Source of the DNA: a virus
IMG/VR virus record: IMGVR_UViG_3300009603_000058
Span: 1-24,919 of that record
Length of the DNA stretch: 24,919 bases
Direction: 5' to 3' (one strand)
Positions 629-7,832 of the stretch are shown here, piece by piece. The position numbers and the translations under genes were made by a program. How positions within the stretch are numbered: position 1 is the stretch's first letter; each line of letters opens with the position of its first letter. Under the pieces are notes generated by a model. That model saw only the letters and a program-made list of their open reading frames with translations. It was not told the origin of the DNA and made no database searches.

Positions 629-1039
629 TTATCCCTCCAAAACCATCAATGCCAGACGAACTGCCCTTTCTCCGACCTGATCTGCCCACTTTGAATCAAG
701 CATCTCTTCTGCCGCTACATTCCATATTTGGTTTTCCATGGCTTTAATAAATTTTTTGAATCCCTTGAGCTTCCCTAATCCTAGGTTAAAGCACATATTA
801 ACCAATGCCCTTTGCCGTTTATCCGAAAGGTCTTCATACCAACTAAAAGACTTTTTCAATTCATCTATACAGATATCTATATCGTTTTGAAGCAAAAACT
901 CAGCCTCTAAATCACTAATTCCACGATCTTCTATATTTCTTCCGATACCAATAGTCAATTTGTCGGCAGAGCATTTGTAAGGTTTTAACCTTACTCCCTC
1001 GTCCCTCTTCAATTCTTCAATTAAAGTTTCTCTATTCAT
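629..1039 (-). CDS. Endolysin, T4-type lysozyme (glycoside hydrolase family 24)
   Basis: This 136-residue protein has the size and opening of phage muramidases that cleave the peptidoglycan glycan strand at lysis. The catalytic Glu is E14 in the RDEG motif, followed by the TIGIGRN segment (residues 29-35). The family motif E-8aa-(D/C)-5aa-T fits exactly as E14, C23 and T29, so this is the variant with cysteine where T4 lysozyme has aspartate. There is no signal peptide or N-terminal membrane anchor, so release through a holin is expected. The start overlaps the preceding coiled-coil membrane gene by four bases (ATGA), and the next virion gene starts immediately after the stop. The GTA-type holin gene lies about 4.4 kb upstream in the same direction, separated by two large exported-protein genes. 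Confidence 0.93.
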   Translation of the reverse strand: MNRETLIEELKRDEGVRLKPYKCSADKLTIGIGRNIEDRGISDLEAEFLLQNDIDICIDELKKSFSWYEDLSDKRQRALVNMCFNLGLGKLKGFKKFIKAMENQIWNVAAEEMLDSKWADQVGERAVRLALMVLEG

Positions 1040-1542
1040 TCCACATCATTTAAAGGATTTTCAAGAATAGTCTGAATCCTTTCCTCCAAGTCATTCCGAA
1101 TTTGACGCATCGTACCATCCATTTCCCTAATTCGGTCATCTAGGTCGTTTCTCGTACCCCGGATTTCTGAGTTCATTTCTTGAAACCGGGATTGCATCTC
1201 GCGTTCCATGTCATAAACATCGTTCCGCACTTCCCGTTGTGTCGCAGATGTTTCTGTCTCAATGGTTCTTGAAAGGCGGTTGGCTTCAACGATTTCATCA
1301 GACACCGCATTAATATCTGAGGCAAGCTCATTTCGGATGAGGTCATACACTGTCTCAAGCCTCCGAATTTCAGCGGTTATGGAATCCGGCTCAAGTGAGT
1401 TCAGCTTCGATTCCGCATCCAGCAGGCGATTGTATAGTTCAAACCCTCCCCACAAAAAACCGCCTACGGTTCCCAATAAAGGCAAAATCAACAGCAGCTT
1501 CCCACCACCGATTCGGATTCCCTGATACTCTACCTCTGCCAT
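1036..1542 (-). CDS. Membrane-anchored coiled-coil protein, possibly lysis-associated
   Basis: The protein has 168 residues. Residues 16-34 form one hydrophobic segment (LLLILPLLGTVGGFLWGG), preceded by a short polar N-terminus. The rest is highly charged and heptad-like, with repeated motifs such as RNDVYDMEREM, RNDLDDRIREM and RNDLEERIQ that suggest a long coiled coil. This layout, one N-terminal membrane helix and a long helical ectodomain, is that of many phage inner-membrane proteins including i-spanins, but no outer-membrane lipoprotein partner was seen. Its start shares a base with the upstream stop (TAATG), and its end overlaps the lysozyme start by four bases, so coupled expression with the endolysin is likely. 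The exact function is unknown; a role in lysis rests on position only. Confidence 0.85.
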   Translation of the reverse strand: MAEVEYQGIRIGGGKLLLILPLLGTVGGFLWGGFELYNRLLDAESKLNSLEPDSITAEIRRLETVYDLIRNELASDINAVSDEIVEANRLSRTIETETSATQREVRNDVYDMEREMQSRFQEMNSEIRGTRNDLDDRIREMDGTMRQIRNDLEERIQTILENPLNDVE

Positions 1543-4151
1543 TATCTATCGTACTGGCTCAAAATCATCTGATTCAATTTCTGCTGTGTTTTGCCGGCCA
1601 TCATATAAAAATTGAATAGATTATCATCCAGTTCCACGCCCTCATAAATTGAACGATCAAGATACCAATTTGTATTATCCTGAATCTGGGATTGATTCGT
1701 ATACTGAGAAAAACCTTCCCTGAACCCAAGAAAAGTAACTACGGCTGTCTGATCACTGTCAAAACCGCCTTCTTCAGAAATAGCTTCCAATTGGTCCTGT
1801 AAATTTTGCTGAACCACTTCAGCCCCCACTCTTTCAGCCAGAGACTCTACTGCCGAAACAATCCTTTCTTCGCTTGCCGTTGGAGGCTCTATCTCAAACC
1901 TTCCGAAGTCAGGGACCTGTTGGGAAAGAAATGTCCCGATATCTCCACCCACGGCCATTGCTTCACTGAAACTGTCTTCAAACTGAATGTCTGCCTGTGT
2001 AAAGGTTTCCCCACCATCCAAAACAAAATCCTGTTGCAACTGCTGCTGTTCCTGCTGCTGTTCTGCCACCTCAAACGGGGAGTCAGCGACTATCTGTGTG
2101 GCAGGCGTTTCGGTCATCTGAATCTGCTGAATACCAGAAGATTGCTCATGCTGGTCCTGAATAAAAGTGTCGCCAGTGGCAAGAGACTGCTCAGTCTGGC
2201 TTACTGGATCGATATTTTGGGAAATACTTGTACCCGAAGATGAAGCATCTGTACTACCAGACGACATGATTGTGTTCCCGCTTTGTTGCTGTGACGAACT
2301 TCCGTCCGATGACGATTGCTGGGATGATATTGTCCTAACCGAGTTCATAGCGATAGATACAGCACGATTGTAATTTCTGCGATCATCCTTTTTACTGGAC
2401 CTCTTCTCTGTTTTTTCCTCTAACTCTTCATCTTCTTCTGCGATCAATTCCATTTCTTCAACAGGATCACTTTCTTCCTCAATCAATTCTTCCTCTTCCT
2501 CCACTTCTTCTGCAATACTGATCAATTCCTCCAGTTCTTCTTCATCAATAAGCTCTTCAAGCTCTTCAAAAATTTCGCCCTCAATTAAATCTTCATAAAC
2601 CTCCTCAGACTGCTCCTCAAGCAAGTTTAGTTGAGCATTTTCGACAAACTCTTCTTCAAGAAGAAAATCTTCTTCTACGCTTAACCAGACATCCGTAATT
2701 TCCATGTCCTCAAGGATATAGTCCTCATTTAGCTGGGCTAAAAGGTATTCTCCTTCTATTTCCTGCTCAAAAACAGAAATAAATTCTTCTTCAAATTCAG
2801 AGTCTATAAATAAAAGTTCCTCCTCGACAGATGGCTGAAAATCCACATAATCGAATTCTTCGTAAATTTCCTCTGGCATGAATAAAGGAAAATTTTCTTC
2901 GTATATCTGTGTTTCCACGAGATACAAATCTTCCTGAAACTCATCTACATACTGGAAATCAAATAATTCCTCTTCCCAAGCTTCTGTCTCAAAAAAGAAT
3001 TCTTCCTCAAAATACTCAGGTTCATACTCGTAGATATACTCTTCTTCTTCGTAGCCATAAAAATCTTCTTCGGATGAAAATCCGACATTTATAAAGACTT
3101 CATCATTGGAAATACCAAGCATGGTGTAATCATCCTCAGTATATGTCCCGTCATCAAAAGTCTCTTCTTCTTCTATAGCGTAAGAATCTTCGATAGCTTG
3201 CTGTCTGGCTAGGGCAGACCCATATCCCGCGCATGAACTATGATAAAGATCATCAAGATCACACTGCTGCAACAGGTAAGCTGATGCATACCCGCTGCAA
3301 TTTACGTTATAAAGACTATTCAGGTCGCATTGCTGTAAAAGATAAGCGGCTGCATAACCCGAACATTCTTCATCGTAAAGAGCGTTGACCCCGCATTGCT
3401 GGTTAAAGTAAGCCAACGCATATCCACTGCAATTCACACTATAAAGCTGGTTCGCTTCACACTGGGATGTAATGTCAATTTCCACAAATAAAGACTTGTT
3501 TTCCAGCGTAGTGTTAAAGCTGGTGTTGTTCCAGTCCGTGTTGACACAGGAACCTGAAACATTTGTGGTTCCCGTGGAACATTCATCGTGGAAAAGGTAC
3601 TGCTTGTATTCGGTGGAATCACCCTGTATTCCAATCAGGACATCGTGCTGGATAATGTCTAAATCTTCATACCTGAACTCGATATTATTCGTACCTTCAT
3701 ACAACAGCATCTCAAAGGTGTTATCGGAAGCACGGTGGTATTCACGCAAGTCGTACCATCCAGCTACAAAATAATCATTACCACTAGGATCATCAAAATA
3801 TTTCGTCAACATCTTTGAGCCGCTGTCGCGGATCAGGTCGGTCCAGAACGGATAAATTGTGTAGGTCGTGTCAGGCAACGGGTCTGGGGTGTAATCATTA
3901 CAGTAAGACGTAGTAAAGGAAAAGCACCCATTCGTAGCCATATACCCTTGGCTATAACTGTTTCCATAAAAATCAAATGTAAATCCCAAGTTAATCGCAC
4001 TGGACCTTCCGTCATCGCTGACATTCCATTGGGAAGTGCCTGATTCGTTTCTCAAATCAATAATAGAAGCCGTTCCGACCACAAAATCGGAGGCTCCCGC
4101 AACGAGTGGCAGAAAACTACATATTGCAAATATCTTCTTCAGGCGATTCAT
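1542..4151 (-). CDS. Large exported protein: nidogen-like N-domain, 22-residue cysteine repeats, very acidic middle
   Basis: The likely start is the ATG at 4151 (MNRLKKIFAICSFL), which gives 869 residues and a classic signal peptide ending AGA before SD. An in-frame start at 4226 would bury that signal. Residues 25-220 resemble nidogen-like extracellular domains (GFTFDFYGNSY, then MATNGCFSF). Residues 231-307 hold four repeats with cysteines at 231/241, 253/263, 275/285 and 297/307, an exact period of 22 with LY and CSGYA motifs. Residues 320-580 are extremely rich in Glu and Asp. Residues 605-710 are Ser/Gln-rich, and the C-terminus looks folded. The gene overlaps its upstream neighbour by 35 bases. 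It is not recognised as a named family; I recall similar repeats in marine phage genomes. A surface or cell-envelope role is inferred. Confidence 0.85.
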   Translation of the reverse strand: MNRLKKIFAICSFLPLVAGASDFVVGTASIIDLRNESGTSQWNVSDDGRSSAINLGFTFDFYGNSYSQGYMATNGCFSFTTSYCNDYTPDPLPDTTYTIYPFWTDLIRDSGSKMLTKYFDDPSGNDYFVAGWYDLREYHRASDNTFEMLLYEGTNNIEFRYEDLDIIQHDVLIGIQGDSTEYKQYLFHDECSTGTTNVSGSCVNTDWNNTSFNTTLENKSLFVEIDITSQCEANQLYSVNCSGYALAYFNQQCGVNALYDEECSGYAAAYLLQQCDLNSLYNVNCSGYASAYLLQQCDLDDLYHSSCAGYGSALARQQAIEDSYAIEEEETFDDGTYTEDDYTMLGISNDEVFINVGFSSEEDFYGYEEEEYIYEYEPEYFEEEFFFETEAWEEELFDFQYVDEFQEDLYLVETQIYEENFPLFMPEEIYEEFDYVDFQPSVEEELLFIDSEFEEEFISVFEQEIEGEYLLAQLNEDYILEDMEITDVWLSVEEDFLLEEEFVENAQLNLLEEQSEEVYEDLIEGEIFEELEELIDEEELEELISIAEEVEEEEELIEEESDPVEEMELIAEEDEELEEKTEKRSSKKDDRRNYNRAVSIAMNSVRTISSQQSSSDGSSSQQQSGNTIMSSGSTDASSSGTSISQNIDPVSQTEQSLATGDTFIQDQHEQSSGIQQIQMTETPATQIVADSPFEVAEQQQEQQQLQQDFVLDGGETFTQADIQFEDSFSEAMAVGGDIGTFLSQQVPDFGRFEIEPPTASEERIVSAVESLAERVGAEVVQQNLQDQLEAISEEGGFDSDQTAVVTFLGFREGFSQYTNQSQIQDNTNWYLDRSIYEGVELDDNLFNFYMMAGKTQQKLNQMILSQYDR

Positions 4152-5403
4152 TGCAGAATTCTTCCTTGCTATAGACCCGATAATCAAACTCACGGCCCTG
4201 TTCAGATTTCCTGAACCGATACTCAACTTCCGTTACCCCTTCAGGCTTGTCCTGAGGGTTGCGGTCCCAGCTATCCTGTGCGTCTGAGCCTATCAACCCG
4301 TTATAGGGACAAGGGGTTCCAGCCATCTCCATTGCCTCAAAAACACGCGAGTCCTGACACATCAGGCTGACTGCCGCGACCTTCATTCCCATATCGTAGA
4401 TTGTTTTAGATAACTTGATTCGTTCACAATTCTCGTCCCGAATACTTCTGCCTCCAGAAAACCCTAAAATCTGAGTCTGTACTGCACCGCTGACTCCAGT
4501 TGTACACAAGTCCTGAGAATAAGAACTACCTATACTGGGAGCAATCGCACTTGGTGGTGGACTGGTTATTTCCTGCTCAATCCTCTGAACAGTCTCATTA
4601 CGGTTAATATTTTCATTTCTATTGGTATTATTAGATACATTCGTATTATTTGTGGTAACTTCAGAAGAAGAGTTACTTTCTGAAGTACTAGAATTTACAT
4701 TGGTGTTGGTATTGCTAGAAACCGCTGAACTGCTGCTTGTACTATTTGTAGTATTTACATTATTACTATTTACACTCTGGTTAATATTTGAATTATTATT
4801 GTTTGTATTTGTTGATTCTGAGGTTGAGCTTACCGTTGAATTATTTACATTAGTATTGTTACTGGTATTGTTATTTATATTCGTATTGCTATTGGTGCTG
4901 GTTGCTACTGAGTTATTAGTATTTACATTTGTGTTGGAATTCGTATTGCTTGAAGTATTAGTATTCACATTCACATTATTATTATTATTGGTATTAGTTG
5001 ATGTTCCAGTGTAAACAGTCGTATTGTCATTATTATTGTTATTTGTATTGGTATTTGTAGAACTGGCAGTTGAGGTTGTCGTATTCGTATTTACATTGGT
5101 ATTTGAATTTGTATTACTAGTACCTCCAGAAGAAACATTATTATTTGTATTTACATTTGTCGCAGTACTCGTATTCGTATTTACATTGGTATTTGAATTT
5201 GTGTTCGTATTTACATTGGTATTTGAATTTGTATTGGTAGCTGTAGATGTTGCGGTACTGGTAGTAGTTGTCGCCAAAGAATTTGCTTCACAAAATTCAG
5301 TGCCAGCAGTGCAAGTACCACTTTGTTGGGCTGCAGCATTTGGTAAAAAAAAAGTTATCAAACAACCAATACCGATCAGTACTATAAATAGAATATTCCT
5401 CAT
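4117..5403 (-). CDS. Exported Asn/Thr-rich low-complexity protein with conserved C-terminal domain
   Basis: The protein has 428 residues. The first 25 form a signal peptide (ILFIVLIGIGCLITFFL, cleavage after NAAA). Residues about 45-285 consist almost only of Asn, Thr, Ser and Val in NTNTNVNTN-type runs, encoded by imperfect repeats including three exact 29-base copies at 5084, 5174 and 5204. Residues 285-428 return to normal composition with several cysteines (QDLC, SLMCQDSRVF, GTPCPYNG, EEFCNE, EDICNM), which suggests a disulfide-bonded domain. The ribosome binding site is weak (GGAA). It lies between the holin and the acidic cysteine-repeat gene, and both products carry export signals. The linker could be a flexible spacer or a glycosylation-like region; this is inference. 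No family name is recognised. Confidence 0.85.
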   Translation of the reverse strand: MRNILFIVLIGIGCLITFFLPNAAAQQSGTCTAGTEFCEANSLATTTTSTATSTATNTNSNTNVNTNTNSNTNVNTNTSTATNVNTNNNVSSGGTSNTNSNTNVNTNTTTSTASSTNTNTNNNNNDNTTVYTGTSTNTNNNNNVNVNTNTSSNTNSNTNVNTNNSVATSTNSNTNINNNTSNNTNVNNSTVSSTSESTNTNNNNSNINQSVNSNNVNTTNSTSSSSAVSSNTNTNVNSSTSESNSSSEVTTNNTNVSNNTNRNENINRNETVQRIEQEITSPPPSAIAPSIGSSYSQDLCTTGVSGAVQTQILGFSGGRSIRDENCERIKLSKTIYDMGMKVAAVSLMCQDSRVFEAMEMAGTPCPYNGLIGSDAQDSWDRNPQDKPEGVTEVEYRFRKSEQGREFDYRVYSKEEFCNESPEEDICNM

Positions 5404-5429: not shown

Positions 5430-5816
5430 TTAATTCTCTCTTGAGACGCTTTTCATTTTCTCAAACGTCCTGAGTCCGCCCAAGCCGAGCATTCCCATCA
5501 AAATGGTAGAAAGTTGACTAAAATCAAATTCTGGCAATTCCTGTTCAATGCCAGCTAACGCAAAACCGAACTGCACTAATGGAGCTAATATGAAGTGGTA
5601 ACTTAATGCCACTCCAGTGACCCAGCCAACGAAGGGCCTCCAGCCAGCGACAAAAATACTTTTGTGGGCTGCTTCAGTCTTGTTCACATCAATTTGGGCA
5701 AGATTCGCGTTATGGATCGACATACTCAACTCATGGTTAAGTTTTTCCCGCAAATCCTTATCAGGAACCATTTTGTCAACGATTCCAGTAATCGGTCCAA
5801 TTAATTTATCAAACAT
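5430..5816 (-). CDS. Holin of the three-TM / gene-transfer-agent release type
   Basis: The start chosen is the ATG at 5816 (MFDKLIGPITGIVDK), one base after the stop of the nuclease gene, with GGAAG eight bases upstream. An in-frame upstream ATG at 5855 lies inside the neighbour and lacks support. The product has 128 residues. After an amphipathic N-terminus comes the family hallmark SIFVAGWRPFVGWVTG (residues 53-68), then hydrophobic segments at about 62-90 and 100-116 and a charged tail. This matches the 'holin of 3TMs, for gene-transfer release' family, which forms inner-membrane lesions that let the endolysin reach the wall. The lysozyme gene lies downstream in the same direction. Confidence 0.88.
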   Translation of the reverse strand: MFDKLIGPITGIVDKMVPDKDLREKLNHELSMSIHNANLAQIDVNKTEAAHKSIFVAGWRPFVGWVTGVALSYHFILAPLVQFGFALAGIEQELPEFDFSQLSTILMGMLGLGGLRTFEKMKSVSREN

Positions 5817-5817
5817 T

Positions 5818-6246
5818 TTATGCGCTTCCAATTGGAGAAAAGGAACCAATCTCAATCAATTTCTTCCGATTTTCCATATGTTGATTTTCAACATCTTTCT
5901 TGCTTTGTCCTGAATATTCCACAGCAAGGTAATTATTAATCATTAACTGGTTTATATTTATTTTGTCTACGATTACAGAGGCAAGAACCCTACCAAATTT
6001 TCCTCTAGAATCTTTCAGTTTGGTCCTCAAGACAACATTTTTTCCATTCTCTATCTCATTCTTCAAAAAATCCTTAGCCAAATTTCCTCTGACCTTTTCA
6101 TCTTTATCCCTTGTTCTTGATTCTGGGGTATCGATGCCATAAAGGCGTACCCTGCATTTATGCAAGATATTAAATCCTAAATCGAGGGTGGCATCTATCG
6201 TATCCCCATCTACCACTCTGTTAACTTCACATTTGTATTCATACAT
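5818..6246 (-). CDS. Staphylococcal nuclease-like (thermonuclease fold) nuclease
   Basis: Starting from the ATG at 6246 (MYEYKCEVNRVVDGDT), the protein has 142 residues, close to a single SNase domain. All active-site positions of the family are visible: D15 in VVDGDT, R34, D39, T40 and E42 in RLYGIDTPE, and R86 in FGRVLAS. SNase enzymes cut DNA and RNA with calcium. No signal peptide is present with this start. A longer in-frame reading from 6312 adds residues that overlap the upstream gene and do not belong to the fold. The gene overlaps the PDDEXK nuclease gene by eight bases and ends one base before the holin start, so it is expressed with lysis genes. Host DNA degradation or superinfection control are possible roles, neither shown here. 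Confidence 0.9.
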   Translation of the reverse strand: MYEYKCEVNRVVDGDTIDATLDLGFNILHKCRVRLYGIDTPESRTRDKDEKVRGNLAKDFLKNEIENGKNVVLRTKLKDSRGKFGRVLASVIVDKININQLMINNYLAVEYSGQSKKDVENQHMENRKKLIEIGSFSPIGSA

Positions 6247-6679
6247 CGGTTTTTTCTTCGTGTAATCTAATGTCTTCTTGATATAGTGTTTCCAACAAAT
6301 ATATAAAATCACCGAATGATAAATCTACGGTTATACGTTCATCGGATAAAACAGGGTTAAGACTTTTCGCAAGAACCCTGACCTTCACAGGTCTATAATC
6401 AAACTTATAAATTAAAGCAGGTATGTCCCCATTCTTGCAGGAATTCATTACCTGATCCCACCAAGCATCTTTTAATTCAGCGCCCTTTGCATATCGCTTG
6501 CACTCGATATTCCATCTACCAAACCTCAAGTCTGGTAATTGCTTTGTCCTTGTCTGCTCAAGTATTCTTTTTACTGGCTTTTCAAGAAGTAAATGTCCAA
6601 CTAAAAGAGTGGCTATCGACCTCTCAAACGATGCACCTTTGTTTCTGGAATTAACTGGCACTTTAGAAATAAATACCAA
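6239..6679 (-). CDS. PDDEXK-fold nuclease, Holliday-junction-resolvase-like
   Basis: This protein has up to 146 residues with the residue order of small PDDEXK endonucleases: E19 in KGASFERSIA, D50 in LPDLRFG, and E59-x-K61 in NIECKRYAKG. A DAWWDQVMNSC helix follows, then a hydrophobic strand (PALIYKFD). Phage proteins of this shape are usually annotated as Holliday-junction resolvase-like nucleases that trim branched DNA before packaging. The start is uncertain. No ATG is available: the frame opens with TTG at 6679, overlapping the upstream gene by 17 bases, or GTG at 6661 just after that gene's stop; neither has a clear Shine-Dalgarno. It lies in a tight leftward run with the SNase-like gene, an unusual pair of nucleases beside a holin. 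Confidence 0.85.
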   Translation of the reverse strand: MVFISKVPVNSRNKGASFERSIATLLVGHLLLEKPVKRILEQTRTKQLPDLRFGRWNIECKRYAKGAELKDAWWDQVMNSCKNGDIPALIYKFDYRPVKVRVLAKSLNPVLSDERITVDLSFGDFIYLLETLYQEDIRLHEEKTDV

Positions 6680-7112: not shown

Positions 7113-7832
7113 CTAGTTGACCTGATTCGTCTGGCCCGTATCCGTGTCTGTCAGGTTCCAGACATTCAAATTAGCAGCCACAGTCCTGCGCTCACCCGCA
7201 CCCTTAAACGGGTAGACCAGATGCTGCAACCATGACGGGAACATATATAGCTTCCCGACCTCTGGCTGTAAAGATGTGCATTGCGGTGGCCGTAGCCGTT
7301 CCACATCCATGAGTGAATTTCTCCCGTACTGGAAGCACAGATACCCGTCACAATCGCCGCTGGAATTATAGAGGCTGTAATTCGGTGTACCAGCAGTGGG
7401 CTGATCTAATATCTGCTGCGGAACCTTTGTCCAGCCAGTCACAGAAATACCCATGATTGTTTTAGTGCCGTGGTCGTGAATCGGATTGTAATCCCCCTCA
7501 AAACTATGGACTGACCAGAGTTCGTCCACCTCCACCTTACGGGTTCCTGAAAACATATTTCCAGTCTGTTCCGCAAAATGCTTCACATATTCAATACCCA
7601 TCCCGCTGATCAGACTGCAAAACTCCTCCAGTTCAGGAGCCGTGTAGTCCATTGTCAACTGTTGTCCACGGTCAATCTGACCCACAAGCGTCCCTGCGTG
7701 GGAATGGCGGTCATCGCTCTCCAGTAACCTGTCAAGATAATCATTTATGCCATCCACCATATCGGGCGGAAGGTTAGTCTCCAGCATGAAGGCAGCAGGT
7801 AAAGACCAGATATTGATGTTAACTTCAGGCAT
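7113..7832 (-). CDS. Phage 2-oxoglutarate/Fe(II)-dependent oxygenase-like protein
   Basis: This protein has 239 residues. The double-stranded beta-helix signature of the phage 2OG-Fe(II) oxygenase family (2OG-FeII_Oxy_5 type) is visible: NPIHDHG with H119 and H121, then the second metal-side motif FPSWLQHLVYPF with H204, and R215/R216 in GERRTVAANLNV, which would bind 2-oxoglutarate. These enzymes hydroxylate proteins, nucleic acids or small molecules in the cytoplasm; the substrate cannot be told from sequence. The ATG at 7832 has GGAGG ten bases upstream. It lies just downstream of the tail fibre gene and a small helical protein gene, as in many marine phages where such oxygenases sit among structural genes. 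Modification of a virion or host protein is possible but not shown. Confidence 0.86.
   Translation of the reverse strand: MPEVNINIWSLPAAFMLETNLPPDMVDGINDYLDRLLESDDRHSHAGTLVGQIDRGQQLTMDYTAPELEEFCSLISGMGIEYVKHFAEQTGNMFSGTRKVEVDELWSVHSFEGDYNPIHDHGTKTIMGISVTGWTKVPQQILDQPTAGTPNYSLYNSSGDCDGYLCFQYGRNSLMDVERLRPPQCTSLQPEVGKLYMFPSWLQHLVYPFKGAGERRTVAANLNVWNLTDTDTGQTNQVN

Follow-up and report, generated by a model that had tools for sequence, protein, structure and literature searches.

A conserved three-gene cassette of marine phages encodes a predicted exported protein with a modular 22-residue cysteine repeat

The locus

The window is the whole stretch of DNA analysed, 24,919 nucleotides of the IMG/VR virus record IMGVR_UViG_3300009603_000058. 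It carries terminase, portal, tail fibre, holin and endolysin genes and is a phage genome, as an earlier note on this DNA had taken it to be. The gene order is a staphylococcal-nuclease-like (SNase) gene, the holin gene, three genes referred to here as A, B and C, and the endolysin gene. Neighbouring genes overlap: the first 35 nt of B lie within A, TAATG is common to B and C, and ATGA to C and the endolysin. The earlier note dealt with B and missed the A-B-C cassette, its lysis-gene context and the modular, variable-length character of the repeat.

629..1039, minus strand: endolysin (Phage_lysozyme; Pfam, PHROGs), in ATGA overlap with C
1036..1542, minus strand: protein C, 168 aa, predicted N-terminal transmembrane (TM) segment, coiled coil, C-terminal NPL motif (sequence, profile)
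1542..4151, minus strand: protein B, 868 aa, middle gene of A-B-C (ORF translation, homologues, cassette)
4117..5403, minus strand: protein A, 428 aa, phrog_20531, unknown function (ORF, PHROGs, homologues)
4210..4569, minus strand: conserved C-terminal domain of A, four invariant Cys (homologues, model)
5430..5855, minus strand: holin (GTA_holin_3TM; Pfam, PHROGs), directly upstream of A

Protein B

The open reading frame of B is listed at 1542-4226 (minus strand) with a TTG start and 894 residues. The true start is likely the ATG at 4151, which gives 868 residues and the signal-type N-terminus MNRLKKIFAICSFLPLVAGA followed by SDF. A signal peptide had been proposed for this protein, and the N-terminus bears this out. 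B is composed of a head, a linker, a cysteine repeat array, a tether and a conserved C-terminal segment.

4092..4151, minus strand: signal-type N-terminus, MNRLKKIFAICSFLPLVAGA (typical Sec-type sequence and hydrophobic-segment counts)
3582..4085, minus strand: nidogen-like beta head, residues 23-190 (Pfam NIDO, RemA profile, AlphaFold)
3462..3581, minus strand: linker with an extra conserved Cys pair, Cys191 and Cys202 (sequence, homologues, model)
3396..3461, minus strand: Cys repeat unit 1, CEANQLYSVNCSGYALAYFNQQ (sequence)
3330..3395, minus strand: Cys repeat unit 2, CGVNALYDEECSGYAAAYLLQQ (sequence)
3264..3329, minus strand: Cys repeat unit 3, CDLNSLYNVNCSGYASAYLLQQ (sequence)
3198..3263, minus strand: Cys repeat unit 4, CDLDDLYHSSCAGYGSALARQQ (sequence)
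2232..3197, minus strand: Glu-rich low-complexity tether, ~residues 319-640 (composition)
1545..1784, minus strand: conserved C-terminal segment of the W-Y...IY....DN...L...M..QY type (homologues, including distant members)

The signal-type N-terminus and a simple hydrophobicity count suggest that B is exported. N-terminal hydrophobic segments are found in 88% of A and of C proteins, in 72% of B proteins, and in 26% of the products of other neighbour genes. In one locus (L042, 2295-3596), B seems to be interrupted; the reading frame stops within the Glu-rich part, and the C-terminal segment lies on a separate one. This split appears to be a broken gene or a sequencing error.

The cysteine repeat array

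The array consists of four complete 22-residue units (3198-3461, minus strand) with eight cysteines, from Cys231 (3459-3461) to Cys307 (3231-3233). The cysteine steps are 10/12/10/12/10/12/10, or alternately 9 and 11 intervening residues, which is the pattern described earlier. None of 200,000 shuffles of the array's 88 residues matched this spacing, and its analytic chance probability is ~1.9e-10. The repeats had been called exact. This holds for the period and the cysteine spacing but not for the sequence, as units have 9-15 of their 22 residues in common, and 34-44 of their 66 bases. Likewise, of the two motifs named, LY occurs in all four units, but CSGYA occurs in three and is replaced by CAGYG in the fourth.

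The low identity between units points to an old array that has been retained for its protein pattern. Recent tandem duplication was considered and is ruled out by the small share of bases common between units. Against close relatives, with synonymous sites close to saturation, dN/dS is ~0.03 in the repeats (comparison with L007), while the head gives 0.04-0.05 and the Glu-rich tether ~0.1. The array has no convincing family match in Pfam, NCBIfam, PHROGs or PDB, and the searches over the repeats gave one weak CPW_WPC match, in the homologue from L009.

Predicted structure of the head and repeats

In an AlphaFold model of the head and repeats, built on an alignment of 29 sequences, the head (residues 23-190) is rich in beta structure and each repeat unit forms a single helix (residues 244-255, 266-277, 288-299 and 310-320). 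The pLDDT is 90-96 across most of the repeats, and the linker at residues 192-213 is of low confidence.

The cysteine spacing among relatives supports the predicted helix in each unit. The first and second cysteines of a unit, which bound its loop, are 10 apart in 208 of 212 cases and 9 apart in the remainder. The step across the helix to the first cysteine of the next unit is 12 in 172 of 185 cases. Its exceptions are four residues longer in four proteins and four shorter in two, about one helical turn, and six further cases have a step of 10, five of them in L161. The nearly fixed loop and the helix exceptions close to one turn favour pairing within each unit, which would close the loop. A disulfide probably joins the two cysteines of each B unit, judging from these sequence patterns.

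A Foldseek search with the head-repeat model returned no significant relative in the PDB. A search of BFVD yielded a few phage proteins, most of them uncharacterised. The Hcp/Sel1-like repeats of Helicobacter are exported, ~36-residue, two-helix units that are each tied by a disulfide. Both repeats are helical, whereas the B unit has 22 residues, one helix and a predicted disulfide, and no Pfam match to Sel1 is found in B. The predicted stalk offers a clean example of a disulfide-tied helical repeat in which the number of units appears to tune length.

Conservation and modularity of the repeat

A scan of viral contigs for relatives of B recovered 59 loci. Almost every copy long enough to include the region carries the array, mostly with 2-4 units, and the step from the second cysteine to the next first cysteine is constant at 12. 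The earlier note had set loss of the repeats in all homologues as a refuting outcome; homologues keep both the array and its spacing. A second scan, seeded on protein A, gave at least 600 matches in the viral collection. Among the B proteins of these A-seeded loci, a set that leans towards relatives of the window, the array is present in 41 of 76. These counts speak against the earlier description of the repeat protein as rare for a phage product. Strictly counted, arrays have between 2 and 12 units, and 191 distinct units give the consensus C[DN][LI][DN]PLY[SD]xxC[PS]GYxxAYxxQQ. One protein (L161, 6456-8597) has a mixed array, in which 22-residue units are followed by ~ten 20-residue Cys units whose helix part is two residues shorter.

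The array also follows heads without a nidogen-like appearance (L134, L146), and some nidogen-like heads (L072, L097) lack it. Head and stalk are therefore exchangeable modules. A GTDB scan with the head-and-repeat profile found no relative, and an origin from a host gene was rejected.

The nidogen-like head

The proposal of a nidogen-like head is supported by a marginal domain match, and the head is also related by profile to RemA. The N-terminal 321 residues of B match Pfam NIDO (PF06119) at 25.1 bits against a cut-off of 25, and full-length B, at 22.2 bits, falls below it. Five of 29 homologues match NIDO at E<=0.01. The match covers part of the domain and is found in few homologues, which sets the B head apart from typical NIDO members. 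Apart from NIDO, the Pfam scan of full-length B gives a weak NGF match and nothing else.

The head profile (positions 21-159) matches residues 24-171 of PDB 8gl6 chain D (RemA) at E=1.9e-12. The RemA/RemZ-type family is introduced in PMC10994853, by way of its reference 28, as a mobile cell-surface lectin. Chain D of 8gl6 is a type 9 secretion system (T9SS) substrate of which the C-terminal domain is resolved (PMC10994853), so the B head is matched at the sequence level, the corresponding part of the chain being outside the solved structure. The RemA/RemZ gliding adhesins of Flavobacterium johnsoniae are exported surface adhesins with a signal peptide, to which the B head is related in sequence. 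However, they are T9SS substrates, whereas B is a phage protein with no T9SS sorting family in Pfam and has, in addition, Cys repeats and a Glu-rich tether.

An adhesin-like head, together with the tail-fibre genes near some cassettes, would also suit a virion-associated protein that decorates the tail or capsid and binds host or particle surfaces, a reading implied by the virion proteomics that the earlier note suggested. This is quite improbable. The signal-type N-termini of A and B and the TM anchor of C would lead away from cytoplasmic assembly, B matches no PHROG structural family, and nothing in the analysis pointed to the virion for B.

Proteins A and C and the spread of the cassette

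Protein A has a signal-type N-terminus, a ~230-residue Asn/Thr-rich tract and the conserved C-terminal domain. A is predicted to be exported, and C to have one membrane segment and a coiled-coil-like region, both from sequence-based prediction of topology. The tract (4580-5300, minus strand) is nearly pure Asn/Thr/Ser (NTNTNVNTN...); most A proteins of the group have it, at varying lengths, and it is much shorter in the pelagiphage isolates. Neither sequence nor fold searches of the PDB gave a relative of the A domain, which is single-copy in every phage record searched. In GTDB, it is found at 26 loci, nearly all on metagenome-assembled contigs, which are probably phage. These copies (L149-L174) are placed in draft genomes of distant phyla, such as Actinomycetota, Euryarchaeota and Woesearchaeota, and are probably mis-binned phage contigs.

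Protein A lies upstream of B in all loci with enough sequence. Of the A-B loci, 80 extend 700 nt or more past B, and C lies downstream in 73 of them, mostly within 450 nt of B and more than 1 kb away in a few. Dozens of uncultured marine phages have the cassette, as do isolated pelagiphages. The A-B-C order is found in the isolates HTVC202P, HTVC115P, Mosig, HTVC023P and Baldr, in the fosmid phage MedDCM-OCT-S28-C10 and in the roseophage CRP-207. In the isolates (pelagiphages and roseophage), the A profile matches at E 1e-20 to 1e-52 and the C profile at E 1e-7 to 1e-14. The B proteins of the isolates and the fosmid phage have a CBM-like or other domain as head and no repeats, and their C-terminal segment appears conserved on visual comparison (best profile E=0.05 for the isolates). 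HTVC022P and HTVC027P, for which transcript timing is reported in PMC12753301, are not among the A matches. Marine phages carry the cassette in abundance, among them isolates that infect SAR11, the most numerous ocean bacteria. As cultured pelagiphages with A-B-C exist, the function of the cassette can be tested.

The lysis-gene neighbourhood

The 138 neighbour proteins of the cassette include ~9 endolysins, 2 holins and some Rz-like matches. This enrichment is too weak to rely on, and distances in larger records were taken instead. Lysozyme, GH19 endolysin and GTA-type holin families were counted in 24 larger records, 14 of which have any above cut-off. In 12 of these 14, a lysis gene lies on the same strand as A and within ~4.2 kb; several of the 14 are close relatives, and about seven or eight cases can be taken as independent. 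HTVC115P and Baldr have their detected lysozyme a long way from the cassette, and the HTVC202P cassette adjoins the terminase. A role in lysis is therefore optional.

One reading of this context is spanin-like: C would be an inner-membrane coiled coil, and A and B would span to the outer membrane and disrupt it after endolysin action. C resembles Rz in its predicted N-terminal TM segment and coiled coil, some C proteins match an Rz-like spanin family weakly (E ~2e-4), and the cassette often lies beside holin or endolysin genes, in the window between the two. Furthermore, the 38-kb contig of the window phage has no Rz-like match. Rz/Rz1 spanins differ, however, in that the cassette lacks a small lipoprotein partner. 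The N-termini of A and B show, by eye, signal peptidase I-type sites and no lipobox, and the lipobox proteins of other loci are separate genes. Separate overlapping Rz/Rz1-like pairs with a lipobox lie by the lysozyme, near the cassette, in several A-B-C relatives (for example L013, L016, L019, L034 and L044), and some others have an Rz-like match elsewhere in the genome. B is also much bigger than known spanins. A plain spanin as the sole reading is ruled out by the coexisting pairs, and a spanin-like role in the wider sense is unlikely.

The exported proteins lie directly beside the holin in the window, in Mosig and in the MedDCM phage. They might act as an antiholin-like lysis timer that holds back the holin in response to the envelope state or to superinfection, sensed by domains in the periplasm. 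Phage T4 has such a device in RI, which is periplasmic and carries a cleavable signal peptide (PMC8385771). B differs from RI in its size and its adhesin-like architecture, and the holins that adjoin the cassette are of differing types, which makes a timer very improbable.

Proposed role of the cassette

The preferred reading, to which a probability of roughly 45% is given, is that A, B and C form a late, inner-membrane-anchored, exported envelope complex in which the B head binds and the stalk sets reach and stiffness. B would be exported to the host envelope through the Sec pathway. The three-protein complex would be produced late, usually from or beside the lysis operon, and C, with its N-terminal TM helix and coiled coil, would be its anchor in the inner membrane. 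The common core may be the four-Cys domain of A and the conserved C-terminal segment of B. The variable head, nidogen-like in the window, may bind a host envelope component, perhaps peptidoglycan or an outer-membrane glycan. In the stalk, each 22-residue unit would contribute one helix and a 10-residue loop, probably closed by the disulfide. With one disulfide-tied helix per unit, more units would give a longer rigid spacer. The complex may prepare or time envelope breakdown.

The same proteins could act at the cell surface, where the variable B head would mask a receptor or exclude superinfection; with the surface structure covered, sister phages would neither inject nor be lost on debris. 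An exchangeable B head beside constant A and C proteins is consistent with this, as is the profile relation of the head to RemA, of a family given in PMC10994853 (reference 28 therein) as a mobile cell-surface lectin. A stalk that varies from 2 to 12 units would fit as well. Superinfection exclusion genes are frequently expressed early or alone, whereas this cassette overlaps lysis genes, and the Pfam scan of B gives no outer-membrane anchor or surface-export domain. Both masking and exclusion, with the protection of sister phages, are unlikely but deserve to be taken seriously.

The envelope-complex reading has a broader form, possible but doubtful, in which A-B-C represents an undescribed class of envelope machine of ocean phages, separate from holin, endolysin and spanin. 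It is similarly doubtful that such a machine, an arm anchored in the inner membrane with interchangeable binding heads and a disulfide-locked adjustable stalk, grips or bridges the envelope at the end of infection. If a role in lysis or exclusion is true, the cassette would be a new component in how ocean phages open or guard cells. The family to which A is assigned has no known function, and the B repeats match no described family.

Phage-encoded exported envelope proteins are already known. Curli (type VIII secretion) modules are encoded by pelagiphages and methylophages (PMC9599517, PMC9004378), with a suspected link to lysis (PMC9004378), and resemble A-B-C in this respect. CsgG is found in 0 of the 38 cassette-carrying records, many of them fragments, and a curli link of A-B-C was ruled out on this count. 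No prior description of the cassette or the 22-residue repeat was found in open-licence papers, an absence that is weak evidence.

Other genes near the cassette

The staphylococcal-nuclease-like gene (5818-6312 in the window) adjoins the cassette repeatedly (6 of the 138 neighbour proteins from 26 loci). Beside the cassette in two phage contigs, L059 (after B) and L050 (3944-4312), genes similar to those for iron-sulfur proteins, an IscU-like scaffold and an IscA/ErpA-like carrier, were recognised by eye. In the window, a 2OG-Fe(II) oxygenase gene (7113-7832) lies between the tail fibre and the lysis region; genes of this kind are frequent among related pelagiphages (PMC9599517).
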